Source of the DNA: Vescimonas coprocola
GTDB taxonomy: Bacteria; Bacillota; Clostridia; Oscillospirales; Oscillospiraceae
Reading direction: 5' to 3'
Assembly (NCBI RefSeq): GCF_018408575.1
Contig: NZ_AP023418.1
Coordinates: 744,001 to 808,000 of the forward strand
Length of the DNA: 64,000 bases
Part shown: in pieces, positions 1,243-18,431 of the stretch
How positions within the stretch are numbered: the stretch's first letter is position 1
Layout: each line of letters starts with the position of its first letter
Notes under the pieces: model-generated
Seen by the model: only the letters and a program-made list of their open reading frames with translations
What the model was told of the DNA's origin: nothing
The model's database searches: none
Made by a program: the position numbers and the translations under genes

Positions 1243-1709
1243 TTGCTGCCCTCCAGCTTCTTCAGAATACGAACCAGATTCCAGTCCGGGATGGCCTCAC
1301 CGCCGTCCTTATCCAGACACAGTACCAGAAATTCCTCCTCCTGCTGCCGGATGGTGACGGTGCCGGGGGTCAGGGTGATGGAGTTGGACAGCAGCACACG
1401 GGAGCTGGCCTCCTCCAGCGGCACCTGCAGCCGCACCACGGCAGGGCGGTAGGCAGCCTTGGGGGAGAGAATGACCTTCATGGTCTGCACATTGGCCTTC
1501 ACGATCTCCCATACCAGCGTCACGCCGTATTGAAGATACCGCCCCAGCCGCCCCAGCACCCGCCGCTCGTTCCGGGGATGATACCCCAGCACGGCGACGC
1601 AGAAGGCATATACAAGCCCCGTTACGACGATGCCGAACAGGCAGATCTCCAGCGTCACCCGCCCGTTGAAAATAAGCCACAGCAGAAACAGAAACACACA
1701 CATCAGCAT
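1239..1709 (-). CDS. mrpE: Mrp antiporter subunit E
   Basis: A 156-residue MnhE/MrpE-type protein. It has two N-terminal membrane segments (about 1-18 and 20-42) and a soluble C-terminal domain with the family motif LLSNSITLTPGTVTI. This is the first gene of the visible minus-strand antiporter operon. The ATG at 1709 has an AAGGA-type site about 11 bases upstream and a second in-frame ATG two codons later, so the exact start is slightly uncertain. The operon begins with E rather than A, B, C or D. The large transporting subunits must therefore lie beyond the left edge, as in Mbh/Mbx-like arrangements. Confidence 0.9.
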   Translation of the reverse strand: MLMCVFLFLLWLIFNGRVTLEICLFGIVVTGLVYAFCVAVLGYHPRNERRVLGRLGRYLQYGVTLVWEIVKANVQTMKVILSPKAAYRPAVVRLQVPLEEASSRVLLSNSITLTPGTVTIRQQEEEFLVLCLDKDGGEAIPDWNLVRILKKLEGSK

Positions 1710-1761
1710 GGACTGTCACATCCTTTTCCGGGGCGGGCTGTTCCGTACCCATCCCCTGATA

Positions 1762-1798
1762 ATTTACATAAAACGTCCAAAGTTGCACGCAAAATTTA
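1762..1798 (-). promoter_or_regulatory. candidate promoter for the antiporter operon
   Basis: On the minus strand, TTGCGT is followed after 16 bases by TATGTA, about 50 bases upstream of mrpE, in an AT-rich patch inside GC-rich DNA. The match to a vegetative promoter is moderate and there is no other supporting evidence. Confidence 0.35.
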
Positions 1799-1950
1799 TT
1801 GTACCATGGTTGGAAAGCACAAGTCAATAAAAAAAGGTTTCACAATGCGAAAAAATGAAGGAAAGCCGCCGGGAAACCCGGAAAGTTCCAGTCCGCAGCA
1901 TAGGAAATCGTGCCGGTTTTTGGCATATTTCCACCGCCGGAAGGCACCCC

Positions 1951-1979
1951 TTGCGCCGGAGGGCGTCTCCTGTTATAAT
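1951..1979 (+). promoter_or_regulatory. vegetative promoter of the TetR gene
   Basis: TTGCGC at 1951-1956 and a perfect TATAAT at 1974-1979 are separated by 17 bases. A TG lies one base before the -10 (extended -10). It points to the TetR-family gene starting at 2005, whose leader is therefore only about 20 bases. Confidence 0.8.
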
Positions 1980-2004
1980 ACGGTGAAGAACAGGAGGTGC
2001 GTTC

Positions 2005-2550
2005 ATGGCGCTATACACACAAAAGGCCATCATGCGGGCCTTTGGGGAGATGCTGGAGGAGATGCCCTTCGACAAGATCACCGTGACGGCCCTTGTAAAG
2101 CGGTGCGATATCAGCTCCAACACCTTTTATTACCACTACCGGGACATCTATGATCTGTTGGATGCGTGGTTCCATCTGGAGTTGGGCCGCTTCACCGGAG
2201 AGGGTACCGACTGGCATACGTCCACCAAGGCCGTCATGCGGGAGTGTCAGGCCCATCCCGCCAAGATCTACCATGTGTTCAACGCCCTGTCACGGGACCG
2301 GATGGAGCAGTATGTGCTCTCCCTGACGGACGACACCTTTTTCCGGCTGGTGCAGCAGCAGACGGCAGACAGCGGCCTGCCGCAGGAGCGGGTGGAGGAG
2401 ATCGCCGCCTTCTGTCGCTATGCCTATGTGGGCTTTTTCCTGCAATTCCTGTGGAACCGTATGGAGGCGGACATCGACCGCAGCGTGGACCGGCTGGGGG
2501 AGCTGATGACCGCCTTTGTCCGCAGCGCCATGGCGGAGCCGGCGAACTGA
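2005..2550 (+). CDS. TetR/AcrR-family transcriptional regulator
   Basis: A 181-residue protein. The N-terminal helix-turn-helix spans about residues 8-52 and includes the typical recognition segment SSNTFYYHYRDIYDLL. The C-terminal all-helical ligand domain ends with an FFLQFLWNRM stretch, like the TetR_C domains found in DhaS-like and other Firmicutes regulators. The start is supported by AGGAGG eight bases upstream. It lies divergent from the Mrp-type operon, which makes that operon a possible target, but this is only an inference from position. No ligand can be predicted. Confidence 0.88.
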   Translation: MALYTQKAIMRAFGEMLEEMPFDKITVTALVKRCDISSNTFYYHYRDIYDLLDAWFHLELGRFTGEGTDWHTSTKAVMRECQAHPAKIYHVFNALSRDRMEQYVLSLTDDTFFRLVQQQTADSGLPQERVEEIAAFCRYAYVGFFLQFLWNRMEADIDRSVDRLGELMTAFVRSAMAEPAN

Positions 2551-2564
2551 ATTTTCGGATAAAC

Positions 2565-2598
2565 CGGCAGAAATGTCCCCAATAGGACGCTTCTGCCG
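2565..2598 (+). terminator. hairpin downstream of the TetR gene
   Basis: CGGCAGAA..GTCC pairs with GGAC..TTCTGCCG around a six-base loop, 15 bases after the tetR stop. No T-run follows, so termination is uncertain. Confidence 0.4.
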
Positions 2599-2599
2599 C

Positions 2600-2740
2600 C
2601 GTCTATGAGGGCGGGGCTATCATGCGGCCCGGGAGACGGCGGAAAAGTACGATATCAACGTGCCGTGGCTGATCCGCATGGATCCCACCTCCGCCTGCAA
2701 TATGCGCTGCACCGGCTGCGTGGCCGGACGAGCATCAAAA
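2600..2740 (+). pseudogene. remnant of a radical SAM enzyme gene
   Basis: In the frame starting at 2633 the DNA reads ETAEKYDINVPWLIRMDPTS and then ACNMRCTGC, which is the start of a radical SAM domain with its CxxxCxxC iron-sulfur motif. This form of the motif (NVPW..MDPTSACN..C.GC) is typical of a family of clostridial radical SAM proteins that should continue for more than 300 residues. Here homology stops right after the third cysteine. Upstream, an adjacent frame reads VYEGGAIMRP, then a frame change and a stop codon interrupt it. There is no start or ribosome binding site. It is a truncated, frameshifted fragment left by deletion. Which radical SAM subfamily it came from is uncertain. 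Confidence 0.7.
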
Positions 2741-2758
2741 CTGAAACCGATGAACGAA

Positions 2759-2783
2759 AGTCCCACGGCGATGCCGTGGGACT
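2759..2783 (+). repeat. perfect inverted repeat
   Basis: AGTCCCACGGC and GCCGTGGGACT form an 11-bp perfect stem with a GAT loop, just after the radical SAM remnant. It is preceded by A-rich sequence and followed by CTATT, so it may be a weak terminator or a deletion scar. Confidence 0.5.
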
Positions 2784-2892
2784 CTATTCGTCCGGAGATA
2801 AAAGACAAATTGTAACCATTTTGTGCATATTTTGTAATTGTAATTCCCATGGGGATAGACCATAATAGAATACAGTTTCACGCAGCTTACGG

Positions 2893-2927
2893 GACAGCCT
2901 GCAGAGTGATCTGCGGGCTGTCTTTCT
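2893..2927 (+). terminator. hairpin with short T-run upstream of the MBOAT gene
   Basis: GACAGCCTGCAGA pairs with TCTGCGGGCTGTC (one mismatch, four-base loop) and is followed by TTTCT. It lies in the 420-base region between tetR and the acyltransferase gene and could terminate or attenuate upstream transcription. The rest of that region (2816-2892) is AT-rich with no gene. Confidence 0.45.
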
Positions 2928-2970
2928 GGATAGACAGCATCGGTCACGTTCAATACCATAGGAGAATCGC

Positions 2971-4308
2971 ATGGGCTTTAACACACTACCCTTTATTTTC
3001 ATCTTTCTGCCGGTGTTTCTGGCAGTATATTACCTGATGCCGGAGCGACTGCGAAACGGCGTTCTGACATTAGGGAGTCTTGTCTTTTACCTGCTCGGCA
3101 CATGGAAGCGGCCGTGGTGTCTGGCGCTGCTGCTGGGGCTCATGGCTCTGACGTGGCTCTCCGGCCGGAAGCTGGCGGGGAGCAAGCCCCTGCTGGTGGG
3201 GAACCTGCTGGTGCTGGGCCTGTGCCTTTTCGGCTTCAAATATGCCGGCCTGCTGGGCAGTGGCATCGCCCTGCCGCTGGGCCTGAGCTTTTACTCCTTC
3301 CAGATGGCTGCCTACGTCATCGACGTGTACCGTGGCCGCATGGAGCCGGAGGAGTGTCCGGTGTCCTACGCCGCAGAGATCCTGATGTTCCCCAAGCTCC
3401 TCTCCGGCCCTCTCATGGACCCGGCGGATCTGAAGGAGCAGATGTACCGCCGCACCTGCACCCTGCGGGAGCTGGATGCGGGCCTGCGGGACTTCATCAT
3501 CGGTCTTTCCATGAAGGTGCTGCTGGCCAACCAGATCGGCGGCCTGTGGCGTCAGGTCAAGACCATCGGCTTCGAGAGCGTCTCCACCCCTATGGCGTGG
3601 CTGGGAATTGTGGCCTACTCTCTGCAGCTGTATCTGGACTTCTGCGGCTATTCATGGATGGCCATCGGCGTAGGGGAGATGCTGGGCTTCCGGCTGCCCC
3701 GGAACTTCGAGCACCCCTACGCCGCCCGCTCCATGCGGGACTTCTGGCGCCGCTGGCACATCAGTCTCAGCTCTTGGTTTCGGGACTATGTGTACATCCC
3801 GCTGGGCGGCAGCAAAAAGGGGGAGGGCCGTACCTACCTGAACCTGCTGGTGGTGTGGCTGTTTACGGGCCTGTGGCACGGCAGTACGCTGAACTTCCTG
3901 CTGTGGGGACTGTTCCTCTTTGCCCTCATCTCTCTGGAACGTCTGGGCTGGGGCAAGGTGCTCCGGCGCAGTCAGGTGATCTCCCGGCTCTATATGCTCC
4001 TGGTGATCCCCCTAAGTTGGATGCTCTTCGCCATCCCCTCCCTGAAGGACATCGGCAGCTATATCGGGCGGCTCTTTGCCTTCTCCGGCGGCACGGCGGT
4101 CCATGCACGGGATTTTCTGGTCTACGGACGGCAGTACGCCGTGGTATTGGTCATCGGTCTGCTGGTGTCCACGCCCTTACCGGAGAAGCTCTGGCGCCGC
4201 ATCCGCACCTCCCCGCTGGGAACGGTGCTCCTGCTGGTGCTGTTCTGGGTATGCGTTTACTGTATGGCGGTGGCCACCAACGACCCCTTTATGTATTTCA
4301 GCTTTTGA
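2971..4308 (+). CDS. MBOAT-family membrane O-acyltransferase
   Basis: A 445-residue protein with about ten hydrophobic segments. It has the MBOAT signature region RRWHISLSSWFRDYVYIPLG (from about residue 258) and a conserved histidine in LWHG (His303), the presumed catalytic residue of AlgI/DltB/PatA-type acyltransferases. These proteins pass an acyl group, usually acetyl, across the membrane onto cell-wall or exopolysaccharide. An AGGAG site lies eight bases before the ATG. The downstream gene encodes a secreted SGNH protein, the usual partner that finishes the transfer outside the cell. The acceptor polymer cannot be inferred. Confidence 0.92.
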   Translation: MGFNTLPFIFIFLPVFLAVYYLMPERLRNGVLTLGSLVFYLLGTWKRPWCLALLLGLMALTWLSGRKLAGSKPLLVGNLLVLGLCLFGFKYAGLLGSGIALPLGLSFYSFQMAAYVIDVYRGRMEPEECPVSYAAEILMFPKLLSGPLMDPADLKEQMYRRTCTLRELDAGLRDFIIGLSMKVLLANQIGGLWRQVKTIGFESVSTPMAWLGIVAYSLQLYLDFCGYSWMAIGVGEMLGFRLPRNFEHPYAARSMRDFWRRWHISLSSWFRDYVYIPLGGSKKGEGRTYLNLLVVWLFTGLWHGSTLNFLLWGLFLFALISLERLGWGKVLRRSQVISRLYMLLVIPLSWMLFAIPSLKDIGSYIGRLFAFSGGTAVHARDFLVYGRQYAVVLVIGLLVSTPLPEKLWRRIRTSPLGTVLLLVLFWVCVYCMAVATNDPFMYFSF

Positions 4309-5880: not shown

Positions 5881-5915
5881 AAGGAGGTGTGACCTGTGGG
5901 TCACACCTCCTTTTT
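5881..5915 (+). terminator. strong intrinsic terminator between convergent genes
   Basis: AAGGAGGTGTGACC and GGTCACACCTCCTT form a perfect 14-bp stem with a TGTG loop, followed by a T5 run. It ends plus-strand transcription from the 5340 gene. The minus-strand sigG gene ends right beside it. Confidence 0.85.
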
Positions 5916-6685
5916 CACAGCTCCTGCTTGATGGAGCGTATGGCATTTTTCTCCAACCGGCTCACCTGCGCCTGCGAGATGCCGATCTCGGAGGACACCT
6001 CCATCTGGGTCTTGCCCTGACAGAACCGCAGGGCCAGAATGTTCCGCTCACGGGGCTGCAAGTGGGAGATGGCGTCCTTCAGCGCCAGCTGCTGCAGCCA
6101 GCCCTCATCGCTGCTGTGGTCATCCCGGATCTGATCCATGACGCACACGGCGTCCCCGCCGTCGGCGTACACCGGCTCATACAGAGACACCGGGGCTGAC
6201 ATGGCGTCCATGGCGAACACCACCTCCTCACGGGGCAGCTCCAGCTCCTGGGCGATCTGCTCCACCGTAGGCTCCCGCTGTTGCTGGCGCAGGAGCCGCT
6301 CACGGGCCTGCAGGACCTTATAGGCAGTGTCCCGCATACTCCGGCTGACCCGCAGGGTGCTGTTGTCCCGGAGATAGCGGCGGATCTCCCCCACGATCAT
6401 GGGAACGCCATAGGTGGAGAACCGCACCGGCTGACGGATGTCGAAGTTGTCGATGGCCTTGATAAGACCGATGCACCCCACCTGAAACAGATCGTCGGCG
6501 TTCTCGCCCCGGCTGCTGAACCGCTGGATCACCGACAGCACCAGCCGGAGATTGCCCCGGATCAGCCGCTCACGGGCCGCCATATCCCCCTGCTTGGTGC
6601 GCCGGAGAAGCTCCATCATCTCGTCGTTTTTCAGGATCTCCAGCCGGGCTGTATTGATCCCGCAGATTTCCACCTTCCCCTGCAT
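5915..6685 (-). CDS. sigG: RNA polymerase sporulation sigma factor sigma-G
   Basis: A 256-residue sigma-70 family protein that is collinear with Bacillus sigma-G. It starts with the family-specific KVEICGINTARLEILKN. Region 2 contains DDLFQVGCIGLIKAIDNFD and RFSTYGVPMIVGEIRRYLRD, region 3 spans about 130-170, and region 4 contains QGKTQMEVSSEIGISQAQVS. It directs late gene expression in the forespore. A ribosome site (GGAGG) precedes the ATG, and a sequence matching the sigma-F consensus sits at 6713-6742. Unlike many Firmicutes, no spoIIGA or sigE lies next to it. A copy of an intergenic repeat lies upstream. Confidence 0.95.
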   Translation of the reverse strand: MQGKVEICGINTARLEILKNDEMMELLRRTKQGDMAARERLIRGNLRLVLSVIQRFSSRGENADDLFQVGCIGLIKAIDNFDIRQPVRFSTYGVPMIVGEIRRYLRDNSTLRVSRSMRDTAYKVLQARERLLRQQQREPTVEQIAQELELPREEVVFAMDAMSAPVSLYEPVYADGGDAVCVMDQIRDDHSSDEGWLQQLALKDAISHLQPRERNILALRFCQGKTQMEVSSEIGISQAQVSRLEKNAIRSIKQEL

Positions 6686-9248: not shown

Positions 9249-10985
9249 ATGCCGCTGGACGCCATTTGTATGCAGGCCGTGGTCCGTGAGACCGCCGCAC
9301 AGATAGAAAATGCCCGCATTGAGAAGATCCAGCAGCCGGCACGGGATCAGGTGATCCTGCTGCTGCGGGGCGGGCGGCGCCTGCTGCTCAACGCCGGAGC
9401 CAGCCAGCCCCGGCTGCATCTGACCCAGCAGCTGCGGGACAACCCCGCCCAGCCCCCCATGTTTTGTATGCTGCTGCGGAAGCATCTGGCCGGGGGACGG
9501 CTGCTGCGTCTGGAGCAGGAGCCGCTGGAGCGTGTGGTGACGCTGACCGTCCGGGCGGTGGACGAGCTGGGGGAGCAGAGCGACTACCGCCTGATCCTGG
9601 AGGCCATGCCCCGCCACGCCAACCTCATTCTGGTGGATCGGGAGGGCCGCATCGTGGACTGCCTGCGCCGGGTGGACTTCGAGATGTCCCAGCAGCGTCA
9701 GGTACTGCCGGGGCTTTACTACCACCTGCCGCCCCGTCAGGATAAGTGCGACCCGCTGACGACGGAGGAGGATGCCTTCCGCCGCCTGCTGGCCCGGCGC
9801 CCGGAGGACAGTCCGCTGGACCGCTGGCTCATGGATACCTTCACCGCCATTCCGCCTCTGCTGGCACGGGAGTTGGTCTGCCGCACCTGCGGCGAGACGG
9901 ACGCCCGCAGCGCCGAACCCGATGCCCTGTGGCAGACCTTCCACACATGGCAGCAGCAGGTGCAGGAGGGCCGCTTTCTCCCGCAGCTGCTGGAGCGTGA
10001 GGGCCGACCGGCGGACTTTTCCTATTTCCCCGTGACCCAGTACGGACCCTCGGTCACCTGCCGCACCTACGACACCTTCGCCCAACTGCTGGATGACTTC
10101 TATCAGGGCCGGGAACAGGCGGACCGTGTTCGCCAGAAGGGGCAGGATCTGATGAAGGCCGCCACCGCCGCACGGGATCGTGTCCGCCGGAAGCTGGCCC
10201 TTCAGGAGAAGGAGTACGCCGCCGCACAGGACCGGGAGCCTCTGCGACTGGCCGGTGAGCTCATCACCGCCAATCTCTACCGCTTGGAGCGGGGCATGAC
10301 CCACCTGACGGCGGAGAACTACTACGAGGAGGGCTGCCCCCAGCTGGATATCCGTCTGGACCCGCTGCTGACGCCTCAGCAGAACGCCGCCCGCTATTTC
10401 AAGCAGTATGCCAAGGCCAAGACGGCGGAGCGCATCCTGACGGAGCAGCTGGAAAAGGGCCGGCAGGAGTTCTCCTATCTGGAGAGCGTGGTGCAGGAAC
10501 TACAGCAGGCGGAGTTGGAGCAGGACTTCAACGACATCCGTACCGAGCTGACGGAGGGCGGCTACCTTCGGGGCCGGGGCAAGAAACAGCCCGGCTTCCA
10601 GCGGGCTTCCCGCCCACGGGAGTTCCGCTCCACGGCGGGCCTGCGAATTCTGGTGGGCCGCAGCAACCGTCAGAACGACAAGCTGACGTGCAAGGACGCC
10701 GACCGCCGGGATATCTGGTTCCACACCCAAAAGATCCACGGCTCCCATGTGATCCTCTGCACCGGCGGCACAGAGCCGGACCGCCGGAGCATTGAGGAGG
10801 CCGCTTCGCTGGCCGCCTACTATTCTCAGGGCCGGGAGGGCGGCAAGGTGCCGGTGGATTATACCCCGGTGAAATTCGTGAAAAAGCCCGCCGGGGGGAA
10901 GCCCGGCATGGTAGTCTATACCACCTATCAGACGATCTACGCCGTACCGGATGAGGCACTGACCCGCCGTCTGTCGGTGAGGTAA
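9249..10985 (+). CDS. rqcH: ribosome-associated quality control factor RqcH (NFACT family)
   Basis: A 578-residue Rqc2/FbpA homologue. The N-terminal NFACT-N domain (about 1-200) contains AMPRHANLILVDREGRIVDC. A long helical coiled-coil region spans about 260-430, and the C-terminal NFACT-R domain contains ILVGRSNRQND and DIWFHTQKIHGSHVIL. RqcH recruits tRNA-Ala to stalled large ribosomal subunits and adds alanine tails to incomplete proteins. Older annotations call it fibronectin-binding protein. It follows mrnC by two bases, and a terminator follows it. Confidence 0.94.
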   Translation: MPLDAICMQAVVRETAAQIENARIEKIQQPARDQVILLLRGGRRLLLNAGASQPRLHLTQQLRDNPAQPPMFCMLLRKHLAGGRLLRLEQEPLERVVTLTVRAVDELGEQSDYRLILEAMPRHANLILVDREGRIVDCLRRVDFEMSQQRQVLPGLYYHLPPRQDKCDPLTTEEDAFRRLLARRPEDSPLDRWLMDTFTAIPPLLARELVCRTCGETDARSAEPDALWQTFHTWQQQVQEGRFLPQLLEREGRPADFSYFPVTQYGPSVTCRTYDTFAQLLDDFYQGREQADRVRQKGQDLMKAATAARDRVRRKLALQEKEYAAAQDREPLRLAGELITANLYRLERGMTHLTAENYYEEGCPQLDIRLDPLLTPQQNAARYFKQYAKAKTAERILTEQLEKGRQEFSYLESVVQELQQAELEQDFNDIRTELTEGGYLRGRGKKQPGFQRASRPREFRSTAGLRILVGRSNRQNDKLTCKDADRRDIWFHTQKIHGSHVILCTGGTEPDRRSIEEAASLAAYYSQGREGGKVPVDYTPVKFVKKPAGGKPGMVVYTTYQTIYAVPDEALTRRLSVR

Positions 10986-10988
10986 GGT

Positions 10989-11023
10989 AAGCCCCGGAGG
11001 CCCTTCCTCCGGGGCTTGTAAAT
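10989..11023 (+). terminator. terminator after rqcH
   Basis: AAGCCCCGGAGG pairs with CCTCCGGGGCTT around a CCCTT loop; a mixed GTAAATTT tail follows. It separates rqcH from the OLE RNA promoter. Confidence 0.7.
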
Positions 11024-11085
11024 TTCTTAACGGCCGATTTTTCCCCGGATGACTTAAAATATACGGAATATCTTGCATAAATCAG

Positions 11086-11114
11086 TTGTAAATTCGGCGG
11101 AAGTATGATAATAT
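11086..11114 (+). promoter_or_regulatory. promoter of the OLE RNA transcript
   Basis: TTGTAA at 11086-11091 and TAATAT at 11109-11114 are 17 bases apart, with TG one base before the -10. Transcription would start near 11121, at the first base-paired residues of the structured RNA. Confidence 0.75.
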
Positions 11115-11120
11115 ATTGAA

Positions 11121-11775
11121 TCACTGAACAGCGGCGCAGTATCCTAGTCAGATCTGCCGTCTTCTAAGAAGGGCCTAAAAATCCTTTTAAGGGCACAACT
11201 GTGAAACTCCTGGTGCCTGCTGCTTACGCCCAGTTTGGGGTGGGTGCTGGGAGGAGATGCGGGAGCCCCCGCATCTGCGGTGGTGGGGCGCCCTCCAATG
11301 GCATGGAGGACCCGACCCTGCCTCTGTGGAGACCTGCTGTTGTGCACAGGCGTACTCCCTTTGTGGTCAAGCGACTTGTGTACGAGGCAGATTATGAACC
11401 TGCAATGCGGTGCTACCCGGCCTTGTGCCGTGAACGCTGTGTGCAGAGTAGCCTGCCTTGCGTGGGTAGGGTAGATAGGGAAGTGGAAGCACCACTGCCC
11501 CTGGCCAGGGGCAGCGTGTTGATTCTCTCGAAACCCTGCCTGCAAAAGAGGCTAAGAGACGGTTTGACTGCTGTGGAAATCACCTAGGCTGTCCCACAGG
11601 GGCGCAGGGGGGATTGCAGTGCGGACTAAGTGGCAGTCGGGTTTCATGACCGGTAACATCATGGCGCAGCACCGAACGGGAAACCGCCTGATCGGCAACG
11701 AGAGGTGTGCTGTGGGGAAATCCTACCCGTACCTAAGCCGCAAGATTAACCCTCGGCGCTGCCCTGTTCAGTATT
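11121..11775 (+). ncRNA. OLE RNA (ornate large extremophilic RNA)
   Basis: This is a 655-base region without a credible protein gene, between a promoter and the gene for an OapA-like membrane protein. Its two ends pair: CTGAACAG at 11124-11131 with CTGTTCAG at 11764-11771, extended inward by GGCGC matches, giving a closing stem for a single large RNA. Many internal hairpins are visible, for example GATGCGGG/CCCCGCATC near 11255-11275. Established knowledge: OLE RNAs are about 600 bases, lie directly upstream of oapA, and are embedded in isoprenoid clusters with dxs, tlyA, argR and recN. All of these are present here in order. I did not align it to the published consensus, so the call rests on context, size and end pairing. 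Confidence 0.85.
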
Positions 11776-11824
11776 TTCTTATGAAGCATCTATATTTTTG
11801 CAAAGCAAAGAGAGGGATATTCCT

Positions 11825-12406
11825 TTGAGCGAAAGCGATAAAACCGATAGAAATAAGGGAAAGAGCAAGAGTAAGAACAAGAAGAAAAGCGGCTGCAGCT
11901 GGGCGCTGCGGGTCTTTCTGCTGGCGGTGGCGCTGTCGGCGCTGCTGAGCTTTTTCTCCTCCACTGCGCTGGAGGGGACCGGCTACGCCGTGGCCATCAT
12001 CGTGCTGGCGGTGTTCATCGCCCTCGGCATCGTGTTTGATATGATCGGCGTGGCCGTCACCGCCGCCGACCCCAAGCCCTTCCACTCCATGGCGGCCCAC
12101 AAGGAAAAGGGCGCCAAGGAGGCCATCCGTCTGCTGAAAAACGCCAATCAGGTCAGCTCCTTCTGCAACGACGTGGTGGGCGACATCTGCGGCATCGTCA
12201 GCGGCTCCACGGCGGCTGTCATCGTGGTGGAGCTGCAGAAGGACCTGAGCACTACCTCCATTCTTATCTCCATCGCCGTGACGGCGCTGATCTCCGGTAT
12301 CACCATCGGCGGCAAGGCGCTGGGAAAGACGGTGGCCATCAACGAGTGTACCGGCGTGGTGTACCGGGTGGCCCGGCTCATGCATACCCTGCATCTTTAC
12401 CGATGA
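11825..12406 (+). CDS. oapA: OLE-associated protein OapA (DUF21-like membrane protein)
   Basis: A 193-residue protein with a very basic, Lys/Ser-rich N-terminus (first 24 residues), suited to contact RNA. About four hydrophobic segments follow (near 30-50, 58-80, 128-148 and 155-175). The middle AAHKEKGAKEAIRLLKNANQ and the later ITIGGKALGKTVAIN resemble the DUF21 membrane domain of Mg2+-related CNNM/CorC proteins. OapA binds OLE RNA and brings it to the membrane in other Firmicutes. The start is taken as TTG 11825 because GAGGG lies eight bases upstream; an upstream in-frame TTG at 11798 lacks such a site. It is 15 bases before dxs. Confidence 0.87.
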   Translation: MSESDKTDRNKGKSKSKNKKKSGCSWALRVFLLAVALSALLSFFSSTALEGTGYAVAIIVLAVFIALGIVFDMIGVAVTAADPKPFHSMAAHKEKGAKEAIRLLKNANQVSSFCNDVVGDICGIVSGSTAAVIVVELQKDLSTTSILISIAVTALISGITIGGKALGKTVAINECTGVVYRVARLMHTLHLYR

Positions 12407-12421
12407 AATGGAGCGATCAAC

Positions 12422-14275
12422 TTGCTGTTGGAACAGATACATGACCCCTCCGATGTGAGGAAACTGAATGATGAACAGGCCCGCCTGCTGTGCCGTGAGC
12501 TGCGCACCTTCCTGCTGGAGCAGGTGTCACGGACAGGCGGGCATCTGGCGTCCAATCTGGGCGTGGTGGAGTTGACGGTGGCCATCCACCGGGTATTCGA
12601 CACGTCGCAGGATCGTCTGGTGTTCGACGTGGGACACCAGTGCTATGTCCACAAGGCCCTCACCGGGCGGCGGGAGCTGTTTGGCACCCTGCGCCAGCTG
12701 GACGGCCTCTCCGGCTTCCCCAAGCCGTGGGAGAGTCCCCATGATGCCTTCATCGCCGGCCACGCCTCCAACTCCGTGTCCGTGGCCTTGGGCATGGCAC
12801 GGGCCCGGACGCTGCTGCATCAGCACTATCAGGTGCTGGCCCTGATCGGCGACGGAGCCTTGGGCGGCGGTCTGAGCTTCGAGGGACTGAATGACGCCGG
12901 GGCCTCTCACGAGCCTATGATCGTGATTTTGAACGATAACGGGATGTCCATCGACCCCAATGTGGGCGGGATGTCCCGGCATTTGTCACGCCTGCGCAGC
13001 AAGCCCGGCTACTACGCCTTCAAAAAGCGCTACCGTCAGGTGTTGGAGTCCTCCCAGACGGGGCAGAGGCTCTATTCCGTCAGCCACGACGTGAAAACGG
13101 CATTGAAAAAGTCCCTGCTTCCCGGCAGCACCCTGTTTGAGAACATGGGCTTTACGTATATGGGGCCGGTGGACGGCCACGATGTGGTCCAGCTGACCCG
13201 GATGCTGCGGGAGGCTAAAGATCTCCACTGTCCGGTGCTGCTCCATGTCCACACGGTGAAGGGGCAGGGCTACGGCCCCGCCGAGGCGGATCCCGGCCGG
13301 TTCCACGGCATCGGACCCTTCGATGTCCGTACCGGCAGCGGCAAGCCCGCCGCACCCAGTTTTTCCTCCGTGTTCGGTGAGACACTGACCCGACTGGCGG
13401 GGGAGGATCGCCGCATCTGCGCCCTGACAGCCGCCATGGTGGACGGTACGGGGCTGACGAAATTCTCCAAGACCTACCCCAGCCGCTTTTTCGATGTGGG
13501 AATTGCCGAGGGCCACGCCGTGGCCACGGCGGCGGGCATGGCCAAGCAGGGCCTTGTGCCGGTGCTGGCGGTGTACTCCAGCTTTCTACAGCGTGGCTAT
13601 GATATGCTGCTGCATGATGTGGCCCTCAGCGGGCTCCATGTGGTGCTGGGGGTGGACCGGGCCGGACTGGTGGGGGCTGACGGCGAGACCCACCACGGCT
13701 GCTTCGACGTGATGTACCTGTCGCAGGTGCCGGGCATGAAGGTGTTCTGCCCCGCCAGCTTTGCCGAGCTGCGGACCATGCTGCGCCGTGCGGTGCAGGA
13801 GGAGACCGGTCCCGTGGCGGTGCGCTATCCCCGTGGCGGGGAGGGGGCCTATCAGGAGGATCGCAGCGATGAGGCCATCGCCTGCCTGCGTCCGGGGACG
13901 GATATCACCCTCCTGACCTACGGCACCCTCATCAACGAAGCCCTGTCCGCCGCCGATCTGCTGGCACAGCGGGGTATCTCCGCTCAGGTGCTGAAGCTCA
14001 GCACCATTGCCCCTTTGTCCCCGGAGACCATCCGCACGGCTTTGACCGGCACGGAGCGTCTGCTGGTGCTGGAGGACTGCGTGGAGACCGGCTGCGTGGG
14101 CCAGCGGGTGGCGGCCATGATGGCCCAGCTGGGCATGGCCCCCCGGCGGCTGGTGCTGAAAAATACAGGCGACCGCTTTATCCCACAGGGCAGTGTAGCG
14201 GAGCTGCGTCATCTCTGCGGACTGGACGCTGAGGGCGTCGCCGCTGCGGCAGAGGAGGCTGTGCATGAGCAATAA
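12422..14275 (+). CDS. dxs: 1-deoxy-D-xylulose-5-phosphate synthase
   Basis: A 617-residue thiamine-diphosphate enzyme that joins pyruvate and glyceraldehyde 3-phosphate, the first step of the MEP isoprenoid pathway. It carries DVGHQCYVHKALTGR, the TPP motif starting at GDG 143-145 and ending with NDNGMSIDPN, and the transketolase pyrimidine domain FDVGIAEGHAVATAAGMA. It begins with TTG: GGAG lies nine bases upstream and the sequence aligns from MLLEQI. It is the third element of the OLE-oapA operon and overlaps tlyA by 11 bases. ispE at 20023 belongs to the same pathway. Confidence 0.95.
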   Translation: MLLEQIHDPSDVRKLNDEQARLLCRELRTFLLEQVSRTGGHLASNLGVVELTVAIHRVFDTSQDRLVFDVGHQCYVHKALTGRRELFGTLRQLDGLSGFPKPWESPHDAFIAGHASNSVSVALGMARARTLLHQHYQVLALIGDGALGGGLSFEGLNDAGASHEPMIVILNDNGMSIDPNVGGMSRHLSRLRSKPGYYAFKKRYRQVLESSQTGQRLYSVSHDVKTALKKSLLPGSTLFENMGFTYMGPVDGHDVVQLTRMLREAKDLHCPVLLHVHTVKGQGYGPAEADPGRFHGIGPFDVRTGSGKPAAPSFSSVFGETLTRLAGEDRRICALTAAMVDGTGLTKFSKTYPSRFFDVGIAEGHAVATAAGMAKQGLVPVLAVYSSFLQRGYDMLLHDVALSGLHVVLGVDRAGLVGADGETHHGCFDVMYLSQVPGMKVFCPASFAELRTMLRRAVQEETGPVAVRYPRGGEGAYQEDRSDEAIACLRPGTDITLLTYGTLINEALSAADLLAQRGISAQVLKLSTIAPLSPETIRTALTGTERLLVLEDCVETGCVGQRVAAMMAQLGMAPRRLVLKNTGDRFIPQGSVAELRHLCGLDAEGVAAAAEEAVHEQ

Positions 14276-15068
14276 AACAAGGCTGGACGTACTCCTGACG
14301 GAGCGTGGCCTGGCGGAGAGCCGCCAGAAGGCACAGGCCGTCATCATGGCGGGCCACGTGTTCGTGGCGGGCCAGCGGGTGGATAAGCCCGGCACGGCGG
14401 TGCTGAGCGACGCCCCTATCGAGGTCCGAGGCCACGCTCTGCCTTATGTGAGCCGGGGCGGATTAAAGCTGGAAAAGGCCATGAAGACCTTTCCCATCAC
14501 CCTGACCGATAAGATCTGCGCCGACATCGGCGCCTCCACCGGGGGCTTTACGGACTGTATGCTGCAAAACGGCGCCCGGAAGGTCTATTCCGTGGACGTG
14601 GGCTACGGCCAGCTGGACTGGAAGCTCCGCAGCGATCCCCGCGTGGTGTGCATGGAGCGCACCAACGCCCGGTATCTGACTCCGGAACAGATCCCCGATC
14701 CACTGGACTTTGCCAGTATCGACGTGTCCTTCATCTCCCTGAAGCTGATCTTCCCGGCGCTGTACGGTCTGCTGCGGCAGGGGGGCGAGATCGCCTGCCT
14801 CATCAAGCCCCAGTTCGAGGCCGGCCGGGAAAAGGTAGGCAAAAAAGGTGTGGTACGGGACCCTGCTGTACATCTCGAAGTGCTGGAGCACTTCCTGACC
14901 CATGCCAAGGAGAGTCGCTTTACAGTGCTTGGAATCACTTACTCTCCCATCCGTGGACCGGAGGGGAACATCGAATATCTTGGCTATTTGAAAAAGTGCG
15001 ATGAGCCGGACGGCAGCTTTGACCTACCGACACTGGTGGCGGAGTCGCACAGTCAGCTGAAGGACTGA
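14265..15068 (+). CDS. tlyA: TlyA-family rRNA 2'-O-methyltransferase
   Basis: A 267-residue protein. The N-terminal S4 RNA-binding domain spans about 5-65 (RLDVLLTERGLAESRQKAQ). The FtsJ-like methyltransferase domain carries the SAM motif ADIGASTGGFTDCML and the later DVSFISLKLIFPAL. TlyA/YqxC proteins methylate ribose in rRNA or act as hemolysin-like factors; the first role is better supported. It overlaps dxs at its start and precedes nadK, the conserved clostridial order. Confidence 0.93.
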   Translation: MSNKTRLDVLLTERGLAESRQKAQAVIMAGHVFVAGQRVDKPGTAVLSDAPIEVRGHALPYVSRGGLKLEKAMKTFPITLTDKICADIGASTGGFTDCMLQNGARKVYSVDVGYGQLDWKLRSDPRVVCMERTNARYLTPEQIPDPLDFASIDVSFISLKLIFPALYGLLRQGGEIACLIKPQFEAGREKVGKKGVVRDPAVHLEVLEHFLTHAKESRFTVLGITYSPIRGPEGNIEYLGYLKKCDEPDGSFDLPTLVAESHSQLKD

Positions 15069-15080
15069 GGAGGAGTAGAT

Positions 15081-15953
15081 ATGAAAAAAGTGATCCTCTG
15101 CCCCAATCCCTATCGGGATAGCGAGCTGCGGGTGTGCAAGGAGGCCAAAAAGCTGCTGGATGCCCTGCATTTTCAGACGGTGGTGTGCCTGCCCTTCCAG
15201 CGGGAGGGCTACGGTGCGGAGCTGGGCCTGCGAATCACCCCGCTGCATCAGGAGATCCGCTCGGCGGATCTGCTCATCGCCTTCGGCGGCGACGGCACCA
15301 TTCTGCATCTGGCCCGGACGGTGGCGCTGCACAGCGTCCCGGTGCTGGGAGTGAATCTGGGAAGCCTCGGATTCATGTCGGAGCTGGAGGTGGACGAGCT
15401 GGACCGCCTGCGGGATCTGGCGGACTGGAGCTTCGACGTGGAGTCCCGGATGATGCTGGACGTGTCCGTCCTCCGGGGCGGAAAGTCCGTGTATAACAAC
15501 ATCGCCCTCAACGACGCTGTCATCTCCAAGGGCTCTATTGCAAGGGTTGTAAGGCTGAATATCTTTACAGAGGAGGGCCAGCTCACCAAGGTCGGCGGCG
15601 ACGGCGTCATCGCCAGCACCCCCACTGGCTCCACCGGCTACTCCATGGCCGCCGGCGGCCCCATCGTGGAGCCCACGGCCCGGAACCTGCTGCTGACCCC
15701 CATCTGCCCCCACTCCACCCGCTCCAGCAGCTACGTCCTTTCGCCGGAGCACGTCATCACCGTGGAGGCACCGGACGCCAACCGCAAGTTCGTCTACCTG
15801 TCCGTGGACGGCGGCAAGGCGTTCTCTCTGAAAAACAACGATCAGGTGCGTGTCAGCACCTCCAGATACACCACCAAGCTGGTGCGGCTGTCCAAGAAGA
15901 GCTTCTGCGAGATCCTGGATAAGAAAATGGGCGGGGAGGTCACAAAAGCATGA
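15081..15953 (+). CDS. nadK: NAD kinase
   Basis: A 290-residue enzyme that phosphorylates NAD to NADP. The diagnostic motifs are IAFGGDGTILHLAR (GGDG, ATP/polyphosphate site), ALNDAVISKGS (NE/D motif) and GDGVIASTPTGSTGYSMAAG, which forms the NAD-binding loop. A GGAGGAG site lies nine bases before the ATG. It lies between tlyA and argR and shares an ATGA overlap with argR, so translation is coupled. The family assignment is firm. Confidence 0.95.
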   Translation: MKKVILCPNPYRDSELRVCKEAKKLLDALHFQTVVCLPFQREGYGAELGLRITPLHQEIRSADLLIAFGGDGTILHLARTVALHSVPVLGVNLGSLGFMSELEVDELDRLRDLADWSFDVESRMMLDVSVLRGGKSVYNNIALNDAVISKGSIARVVRLNIFTEEGQLTKVGGDGVIASTPTGSTGYSMAAGGPIVEPTARNLLLTPICPHSTRSSSYVLSPEHVITVEAPDANRKFVYLSVDGGKAFSLKNNDQVRVSTSRYTTKLVRLSKKSFCEILDKKMGGEVTKA

Positions 15954-16402
15954 AAAATCAGCGTCAGGAGCATCTGCTGCAGATCATTGCCGAGGAGACG
16001 GTGGAGACACAGGAACAGCTGCTGGAACGGCTTCAGGAGCGGGGGATCCGCAGCACGCAGGCCACCATTTCACGGGACATCAAGGAGCTGCACCTCATCA
16101 AGGAGCCGGTAGGGCAGGGCCGCTACCGCTATGCCGTGTCCGCCCATCGGACAAAGCTGAACTTTGCCGACCGCCTGCGTACCATCTTCCGGGAGGGTGT
16201 CCTCAGCGTGGACTACGCCCAGAATCTGGTGGTCATCAAGACCATGCCGGGTCTGGCCAACGGTGCCGCCGCTGCGCTGGACGGCATGGAGGTTCCCTAT
16301 CTGGTGGGGTCTCTGGCGGGGGACGACACCGTTCTGCTGGTGCTGCGTGACAACGCCGCAGCGGCGGAGTTTGCCGACGAGATCAAGGAGATGCTGCGCT
16401 GA
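15950..16402 (+). CDS. argR: arginine repressor ArgR
   Basis: A 150-residue ArgR/AhrC protein. The N-terminal winged helix has GIRSTQATISRDIKELHLIK, the conserved DNA-binding helix. The C-terminal domain has GTxAGDDTV-like SLAGDDTVLLVLRD, where the two Asp residues bind arginine in the hexamer. It represses arginine synthesis genes. Its place between nadK and recN is the standard Firmicutes arrangement and says little about its targets. It starts inside the nadK stop (ATGA). Confidence 0.95.
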   Translation: MKNQRQEHLLQIIAEETVETQEQLLERLQERGIRSTQATISRDIKELHLIKEPVGQGRYRYAVSAHRTKLNFADRLRTIFREGVLSVDYAQNLVVIKTMPGLANGAAAALDGMEVPYLVGSLAGDDTVLLVLRDNAAAAEFADEIKEMLR

Positions 16403-16429: not shown

Positions 16430-18103
16430 ATGCTGGAATTGCTCCATATCGAAAATATCGCCATCATCGATCGGGCGGATATCACCTTTGAGCCGGGCTT
16501 CAACGCCCTCACCGGCGAGACCGGCGCCGGTAAATCCATCGTCATTGACTCGCTGAGCGCCGTGCTGGGTCAGCGCACCTCCCGTGACCTGATCCGCACC
16601 GGGGCCGACAAGGCCTACGTCAGCGCCTGCTTCACCGGCATCCCGCCGGAGGTAGGGGAGGACTTGGGCATCACATGGGATGAGGAACTGCTGCTGCAGC
16701 GGGAGATCCACGCCGACGGCAAAAACGTCTGCCGGGTGGGCAGCCGCCCCGTCACGGTGACGCAGCTGCGCACCTTGGGCAGCCGCCTGCTGAACATCCA
16801 CGGTCAGCACGACGGCCAGCAGCTGCTGGATGAGGAGCAGCACCTGCTGTATCTGGACAGCTTCGGCCGCACCGAGCCGCTTCTGACCGCCTATCGGGAG
16901 AAATACGCCAAGCTGACGGATATCCGTCGCCAGATGCACGCCCTGCAAATGGACGAGGCGGAGAAGGCCCGCCGCATGGATACCCTGCGCTACCAGATCC
17001 AGGAGCTTCAGCGGGCCAAGCTGAGGCCCGGTGAGGAGGAGGAGCTGACCTCCCGCCGCAACCTGCTGCGCAACGGCGAAAAATTCATGTCCGCCGTCTC
17101 CGAGGCAGACTTCTGCCTCAGCGGCGACGACAGCACCAGCGGCGCACTGGCCCTGCTGCGGCAGGCCCAGAGCGCTCTGGAGCCCATCCGCCGTCTGGAC
17201 GACAGCTTCGAGGAGCTGTACCAGCGGCTGGAGGCGGTGTACAGCGAGGTCTACGATCTGGCCTACACTGTGCAGGACAAGCGGGACGCCTTCGACTTCT
17301 CCCCGCAGGAGCTGGACGAGGTGGAGGGCCGTCTGGATCAGCTGTACCGGCTGAAAAAGAAGTATGGCCCGGATGTAGAGAGTATGCTGGCCTATCTGGA
17401 CCGCAGCACCAAGGAGCTGGACGCCATCGAGGACGCCGGCGACACCCTGCTGCACCTGCAGCAGCTGGAGAAGAAGGCCCTGTCTGCTGCCCAGTCTGCG
17501 GCGGAGGAGCTGTCCAAGGCCCGCCATCAGGCGGCCGAGCGGCTGGAGGAGCAGATCCTCACGGAGCTTCGCCAGCTGGATATGGGCCGCATCCGCTTCG
17601 CCATCGACTTCCAGCCCCAGCCCCTGTCTGAGTCCGGAATGGACGCCGTGCGCTTCCTTATGTCCGCCAACGTGGGCGAGGAACTGCGTCCCATCCAGAA
17701 GATCGCCTCCGGCGGCGAGCTGGCCCGCATCATGCTGGCCATGAAGAACGTTCTGTCGGAGCAGGACCGGGTAGGCACCATGGTCTTTGACGAGGTGGAT
17801 ACCGGTGTCTCCGGCCGGGCCGCTCAGAAGGTGGCGGAGAAGATGGCCCGCATCAGCCGCACCAAGCAGGTGCTGTGCGTCACCCATCTGCCCCAGCTGG
17901 CCGCTATGGCCGATACCCATTTCTCCGTGGAGAAGGGCGTCACCGACGGCCGCACCTTTACCCATGTGCGGCGGCTGGATCGGGCCCAGCGGCGGCAGGA
18001 GCTGGCCCGCCTCACCGGCGGCGCCCATATCACTCCCACCATGCTGGAGGGGGCGGAGGAGCTGCTGTCTGCGGCGGAGGATTTCAAGCGTACGCTGGAA
18101 TAG
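16430..18103 (+). CDS. recN: DNA repair protein RecN
   Basis: A 557-residue SMC-like ATPase acting in double-strand break repair. Walker A is GETGAGKS at residues 29-36. The helical arms between about 150 and 370 form a coiled coil, with a hairpin tip near the middle. The ABC signature KIASGGELARIMLAMK and Walker B TMVFDEVDTGVSG follow near the C-terminus, then TKQVLCVTHLPQLAA. GGAGGG precedes the ATG. It is the last gene of the OLE-oapA-dxs operon. Confidence 0.96.
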   Translation: MLELLHIENIAIIDRADITFEPGFNALTGETGAGKSIVIDSLSAVLGQRTSRDLIRTGADKAYVSACFTGIPPEVGEDLGITWDEELLLQREIHADGKNVCRVGSRPVTVTQLRTLGSRLLNIHGQHDGQQLLDEEQHLLYLDSFGRTEPLLTAYREKYAKLTDIRRQMHALQMDEAEKARRMDTLRYQIQELQRAKLRPGEEEELTSRRNLLRNGEKFMSAVSEADFCLSGDDSTSGALALLRQAQSALEPIRRLDDSFEELYQRLEAVYSEVYDLAYTVQDKRDAFDFSPQELDEVEGRLDQLYRLKKKYGPDVESMLAYLDRSTKELDAIEDAGDTLLHLQQLEKKALSAAQSAAEELSKARHQAAERLEEQILTELRQLDMGRIRFAIDFQPQPLSESGMDAVRFLMSANVGEELRPIQKIASGGELARIMLAMKNVLSEQDRVGTMVFDEVDTGVSGRAAQKVAEKMARISRTKQVLCVTHLPQLAAMADTHFSVEKGVTDGRTFTHVRRLDRAQRRQELARLTGGAHITPTMLEGAEELLSAAEDFKRTLE

Positions 18104-18141: not shown

Positions 18142-18431
18142 ACAGCAACTACAAAAACTACTGCAAGGAAGGGAACAAGTAACAGCGCCTGCTGCCTGCC
18201 CAGAGAGCCTCTGTCCGGTGAAAAGAGGAGAGGAGCGCCGCTGCGAATACATCCCGGAGCAGCCGCCCCAACGCCCCGCTGCGGGCCAGTAGGCACGGTC
18301 GGGCCCGCCCGTTACAGCGGCGGAGTGTGATGGCACTCCATGAGGCCGCCTTCCGTGAGGGAGCGGCGAAACTGAGGTGGTACAGCGATGATACATCGCC
18401 CTCTGTCTGCGGACAGGGGGCGTTTTCTTTT
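18142..18431 (+). promoter_or_regulatory. tyrosine T-box riboswitch
   Basis: A leader RNA that senses uncharged tRNA-Tyr and controls tyrS. The T-box core AGGTGGTACAGCG is at 18375-18387. The specifier loop reads GAATACATC with the Tyr codon TAC at 18248-18250. The terminator is CGCCCTCTGTC (18397-18407) paired with GACAGGGGGCG (18412-18422), followed by TTTTCTTTT. When tRNA-Tyr is uncharged, its acceptor end would pair with the T-box bulge and block the terminator. Confidence 0.92.

Follow-up and report, generated by a model that had tools for sequence, protein, structure and literature searches.

OLE RNA and oapA in Vescimonas coprocola

The window analysed here, that is, the whole stretch of 64,000 nucleotides from contig NZ_AP023418.1 of Vescimonas coprocola (positions 744,001 to 808,000, forward strand), carries a gene for OLE RNA followed by oapA, the gene of its membrane protein partner. 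OLE is one of the largest bacterial RNAs, and its biochemical function is unknown. A covariance-model search with RF01071 covered window positions 11115-11781 (+) over the whole model (1-616), with 415.5 bits (gathering score 50 bits) and E 1.3e-118, which bears out the identification of OLE in an earlier note on this DNA. Covariance model, protein family, fold and synteny identify OLE and OapA, and 11115-11781 is a genuine full-length OLE RNA, the single copy found in the host genome (2,557,760 bases in two contigs, about 2.56 Mb). As we infer its ends, the mature RNA probably spans about 11121-11773.

The consensus fold was built on an alignment of 90 relatives from the host's family, comprising 78 rows of type B, which has a hairpin in J5/6, and 12 of type A, which has the short form. 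A covarying pair is present in 29 of the 34 consensus helices. The predicted folding energy of the 654-base RNA is -292 kcal/mol, well below that of 20 shuffled copies (z = -5.6). The self-pairing ends described earlier are indeed found: in the terminal helix P1 the 5' strand at 11124-11131 (+; CTGAACAG) pairs with the 3' strand at 11764-11771 (+; CTGTTCAG), and the conserved core (11129-11135 with 11761-11766) is 95.4% paired in the 90 relatives, with five of seven pairs covarying. The 5' helix strand at 11136-11147 (+), which contains a CUAG palindrome and is 98.6-100% paired with 11584-11592, probably belongs to P2, one OapA site. The 5' strands of two stems resembling P3/P3.1 (five and seven pairs) occupy 11149-11163 (+), with their partner at 11556-11570; these stems are 92.2% and 90.3% paired, with four and seven covarying pairs, and under this putative naming would be the proposed membrane-spanning stem. 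The P5 hairpin (11207-11253, +) is 97.8% paired, and P6 (11277-11327, +) consists of two helices, 95.2% and 90.0% paired. Two hairpins at 11644-11705 (+), with loops GGUAAC and GGCAAC and pairing in the family alignment, form the probable OapB-binding region, named P12.2/P13 in the text of PMC12265935.

OLE is patchy in the host's family, being found in 41 of 150 sampled genomes, as would suit a decayed relic preserved only as the leader of the oapA cluster. However, such a relic is very improbable, given that the match is full-length, that 29 of 34 helices show covariation and that oapA is intact and has kept its motif. Even less credible is a gene for a protein, for example the 128-codon open reading frame (ORF) with a GTG start at 11201-11587; the frame exists mechanically, but the RNA covariance model accounts for the whole stretch and substitutions preserve base pairs, and it was rejected as a gene. 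The earlier note had also pointed to an extremophile RNA in a gut-type anaerobe. The gut-type host is right; the surprise is not, since the text of Fernando and Breaker (2024; PMC11332333) already lists gut clades among its 2,822 OLE hits in Bacillota.

Directly downstream of OLE, oapA (11825-12406, +) encodes a protein of 193 aa that matches the CNNM/DUF21 family (PF01595, 29.7 bits, cut-off 28.4), in agreement with the DUF21-like membrane protein predicted at this place. Its DxxxD motif, here NDVVGD, is present in 110 of 110 loci, and OLE lies upstream of oapA in 79 of 80 OapA loci. OapA differs from the CNNM Mg2+ transporters MpfA, CorB and CorC in its DxxxD motif and its RNA partner, and its length leaves no room for the CBS and CorC domains that MpfA has; a second CNNM-domain protein of the host genome is encoded in a frame of 426 aa. 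The proposed TTG start stands, with the codon corrected: by eye, no Shine-Dalgarno sequence precedes the TTG at 11798, and the TTG at 11825, preceded by AGAGAGGG, is most likely the start. In a survey of 107 loci with a simple Shine-Dalgarno rule, 16 had no scorable start and TTG was the commonest among the other 91 (68 loci), which makes it probable that this unusual start is conserved. That the positive charge of OapA hints at RNA binding has already been published (PMC12265935).

A gene between ole and oapA is rare among the loci. Locus L111 has one, large and with a lipoprotein-like start, at 1574-3880; the ole-oapA gaps of L119 and L132 are of similar size, and L086, where no OLE lies within 4 kb, has two large lipoprotein-like ORFs ahead of oapA. 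Such a gene was considered as a candidate for a new partner and set aside as rare; searches with two of these proteins gave no Pfam match at E 0.001 and nothing near cut-off in NCBIfam. A single short metagenome contig (CAJFPI010000244.1) carries L115 and L116, equal-scoring OLE-OapA matches that run in opposite directions, and this duplication is probably an assembly artefact.

Transcription signals, gene cluster and partner genes

The NFACT/RqcH-like gene upstream ends in an intrinsic terminator (10987-11019, +), with a 14-pair stem and then a T-rich tail. Since that gene closes with a strong terminator, OLE probably starts its own transcript from its own promoter. A strong promoter, as claimed in the earlier note, was not supported: the consensus scan of 10900-12500 for sigma-70 sites found none, with 1.0 expected by chance. 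A possible promoter, TTGTAA-17-TAATAT at 11086-11114 (+), weak by consensus and under the scan threshold, was picked by eye and would place the RNA start near 11121; promoter-like hexamers were seen, also by eye, at the matching position in 15 close relatives. The terminator scan reported none between OLE and oapA, which fits a shared transcript, as described in the text of PMC12265935 for Halalkalibacterium halodurans.

The cluster has the order ole-oapA-dxs-tlyA-nadK-argR-recN, and family matches confirm the five genes predicted behind oapA: dxs (12422-14275, +; TIGR00204, 674.8 bits), tlyA (14265-15068, +; TIGR00478, 290.9 bits), nadK (15081-15953, +; PF20143 and PF01513), argR (15950-16402, +; TIGR01529, 139.3 bits, cut-off 130.45) and recN (16430-18103, +; TIGR00634, 550.2 bits). 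A T-box leader at 18157-18406 (RF00230, 95.3 bits, gathering score 93) lies directly upstream of tyrS, its ordinary place. At 5915-6685 (-) an ORF encodes, by eye, what we take to be a SigG-type sporulation sigma factor; published work ties OLE to sporulation genes.

Elsewhere in the host genome, the OapB gene sits between map and infA and its product is homologous to the solved OapB 7k9b (E 5.2e-8, 36 bits). The OapC gene, just upstream of rpsL, encodes an L7Ae-like protein that in the PDB is most similar to proteins of the YbxF type (E 1.2e-9), and a gene for bS21 is present. Within the family, OapB was found in 32 of 41 OLE genomes and in 29 of the 30 of high quality (completeness of 90% or more, contamination of 5% or less). 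The full-length secondary structure, the position of oapA directly downstream and the genes for OapB, OapC and bS21 are shared with H. halodurans, from whose OLE this one differs by an extra hairpin in J5/6 in the place of UUAAG and by the absence of CCUCC from the P6 strand.

This CCUCC belongs to the anti-Shine-Dalgarno mimic of P6, the bS21 site, and, with the position of the mimic taken from the text of the paper and not from its figures, none of the 90 family sequences has it in the 3' strand of P6. Outside the family it is present in nine of 117 parsed loci (of 148), and the conserved CCC is kept. In the published mutants M1-M3 binding was retained despite an altered mimic sequence. A Shine-Dalgarno/anti-Shine-Dalgarno mimic at the P6 tip (CCCUCC...GGAGG in the window) was discarded, as only eight of 90 family sequences have it and it is thus not conserved.

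A lineage-specific hairpin in J5/6

In the RF01071 alignment, 21 bases that the model does not cover stand between UU and AAGG, both conserved in J5/6; at this point a lineage-specific hairpin (11255-11276, +) replaces the short UUAAG tract. In the family alignment this hairpin is 90.8% paired, with seven of eight pairs covarying, against a mean of 76.9% and a maximum of 79.7% in 500 shuffles, which ignore relatedness. Folded in isolation it reaches -18.8 kcal/mol, and two of 200 shuffles did as well. The flanks are nearly fixed in type B (G11253, U11276 and G11277 in 78/78 rows, A11255 in 77/78).

Type B accounts for 28 and type A for 13 of the 41 OLE genomes of the family. The spacing from the P5 loop to the P6 loop is at least 62 in 97 of 112 parsed rows (of 121, some from the same genome), and a UUAAG string occurs in one of these 97 (L022), inside the insert. 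The hairpin, which L128 also carries by eye, varies in length across the family. Enlarged OLE matches of 841, 833 and 762 bases were seen in G008/L130, G105/L131 and G111/L129, respectively; in the last two, a very long J5/6 insert accounts for some of the enlargement.

A class-wide sample of the host's class had OLE in 164 of 393 genomes. Among the matches listed, minus those already analysed, there were 148 loci outside the family (14 OLE genomes were left out), and all 148 have the short form of J5/6, with no insertion at the hairpin site. Their P5-loop to P6-loop spacing is 47-50 bases in the 140 parsed by machine, and the remaining eight are also short by eye. The tract of the 140 parsed loci reads UUAAG in 107, UUAAA in one, another UAA form in 31 and neither in one.

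OLE, OapA and their occurrence in gut Bacillota are already known, and the new part would be the J5/6 hairpin subtype. The open-access OLE text that was searched does not mention this hairpin; other passages of those papers, figures, supplements and subscription papers lay outside that scope and may show it. The variation described in that text spans J6/7 to P8, plus variants 1 and 2. These two variants, from the TANB77 and RF39 clades, resemble type B as lineage-specific OLE changes in uncultured gut Bacillota with OapC missing (Fernando and Breaker 2024). However, according to the same text, variant 1 has shortened P7, P8 and P9 and has often lost the nucleotides of the OapB site, and variant 2 is without P7 and P8, whereas here P7, P8 and P9 are kept, the change is in J5/6 and OapB is present in nearly all high-quality OLE genomes.

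Distribution of OapC

A 14-sequence OapC profile (E 0.001) matched 70 of the 150 family genomes; G123 (E 8e-4), with a weak match over part of the profile, was left out of the counts. All 13 type-A genomes have OapC, as do nine of 28 type-B genomes and 47 of 109 OLE-negative genomes. In Fisher tests, all of which ignore shared ancestry, type A differed from type B (p 3e-5) and type B did not differ from the OLE-negative genomes (p 0.39), and the same holds for high-quality genomes, where OapC is present in 11 of 11 of type A, nine of 19 of type B (p 0.004) and 36 of 67 OLE-negative ones (p 0.80 against type B). A simple link between OLE and OapC within the family was rejected (OapC in 22 of the 41 genomes with OLE and in 47 of the 109 without, p 0.27). 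Thirteen of the 19 OapC-free type-B genomes have no OapC at the rpsL locus, one of them with only 277 bases upstream, and the other six have no rpsL match in the assembly. Outside the family, 80 of the 148 short-form genomes were searched and OapC was found in 76, in 75 at E <1e-15. This frequency exceeds the roughly 45% of OLE organisms given in the text of PMC11332333, from which sampling and search model differ.

Discussion

With a probability that we put at about 0.85, the window holds a functional OLE gene at the head of the ole-oapA-dxs-tlyA-nadK-argR-recN cluster, whose RNA is made and used as proposed for OLE. Its own promoter would most likely drive a shared transcript with OLE as the leader, and, by analogy with the H. 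halodurans work and with cryo-electron microscopy (cryo-EM) of other OLE RNAs, the RNA would then be cut free and dimerised. By the same analogy, OLE would be held at the membrane by OapA, a membrane protein of the CNNM-like type with Mg2+ transporters among its relatives, and would act with OapB, OapC and bS21 as a stress- and metal-responsive ribonucleoprotein (RNP). In the type-B lineage OapC may have become easier to lose after the change in J5/6.

The role of the kink-turns in OLE is contested, the published biochemistry pointing to J4a/5 with J5/6 and cryo-EM to J4a/5 with J6/7. In the texts concerned, Lyon et al. (2022; PMC9723947) mapped OapC binding to a kink-turn of J4a/5 and J5/6 plus part of P6, cryo-EM shows J4a/5 with J6/7 instead (PMC12286853), and Wencker et al. 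(2025; PMC12054373) name the two k-turns 1a and 1b. From the published wording (J5/6, left shoulder of P6), not from a figure, we infer that the UUAAG tract is the k-turn 1a strand. In the window, the bulged kink-turn strand J4a/5 (11195-11206, +) has C11199, a three-base bulge and G11203 A11204, and its C, U11202 and GA do not vary among the 12 type-A and 78 type-B sequences. In k-turn 1b the partner strand is J6/7 GGAGAC (11328-11333, +), whose GGAG (11328-11331) is invariant in 78/78 type-B and 12/12 type-A rows. Thus, as read from sequence and not from structure, the elements of k-turn 1b (C-NNU-GA of J4a/5 with GGAG of J6/7) are invariant in 90/90 rows, and they also occur in the 11 OapC-free type-B genomes displayed. 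K-turn 1a (J4a/5 with UUAAG of J5/6) lacks its tract here, where the hairpin takes its place, and marks a subtype rather than a requirement of the class. As the 1a tract is gone and the 1b elements are invariant, the latter would serve the fold of the RNA itself, and type B would be released from OapC. Since the hairpin replaces the k-turn 1a strand, any contact with OapC would have to use the 1b elements (J4a/5-J6/7) or a related k-junction.

The J5/6 hairpin may have released OLE from OapC. In the fuller form of this idea the inserted hairpin substitutes structurally for the OapC-induced k-turn 1a, the RNP becomes OapC-independent and lineages then lose OapC, which we propose only tentatively, with the odds against it. 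The RNA tree does not prove this proposal: built without the J5/6 region from 40 family rows and four outside ones (G105 left out), it gave by parsimony five OapC changes and three type changes, with two independent pairs on supported branches. These are too few independent events, and the link between hairpin and OapC is unproven by the tree; moreover, three type-A sequences stand near type-B ones, so that a single origin of the hairpin is unsettled.

The chances are about even that the site tolerates insertions, that the hairpin there is neutral and that the OapC pattern reflects only shared ancestry and general loss in the family. The small number of independent changes on the tree agrees with this, as do the 62 of 109 OLE-negative family genomes in which OapC was not found, the similar OapC frequency of type B and OLE-negative genomes, and the variable hairpin length, with the very long inserts of G111 and G105. 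However, neutrality is harder to reconcile with the near-invariance of A11255, U11276 and G11277, with the single long row that still has UUAAG, with the lack of any insertion at the site in 148 outside loci and with OapC in all 13 type-A genomes. Slightly more doubtful than structural substitution is a third explanation, in which type B retains the J4a/5-J5/6 kink-turn as a k-junction, with tandem G-A pairs between G11203 A11204 and G11254 A11255, the hairpin as a third helix on the unbulged strand, and OapC or metal ions still acting there. Just before the hairpin, G11254 is present in 68/78 and A11255 in 77/78 rows, C11199 and G11277 are invariant, and k-junctions such as those of the TPP riboswitch and DUF-3268 share kink-turn-like G-A elements and carry such a third helix on the unbulged strand, according to the text of PMC10573300. 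The likeness, seen in the letters of the RNA, is nevertheless incomplete: the C helix of type B would be a single pair (C11199-G11277), position 11198 is G in 9/78 rows opposite C11278, and three of the nucleotides also have a predicted place in other helices, G11277 and C11278 within P6 and A11255 within the hairpin.

With a natural subtype in which the 1a tract is missing and the 1b elements are kept, both with and without OapC, the kink-turn question becomes directly testable, and the J5/6 hairpin lineage is thus a natural test of how OLE uses OapC. If the hairpin does substitute for the OapC-induced turn, a piece of RNA would have taken over from a protein partner in an RNP that ranks among the largest non-coding ones of bacteria, and the case for k-turn 1b or a k-junction as the universal fold would be strengthened.
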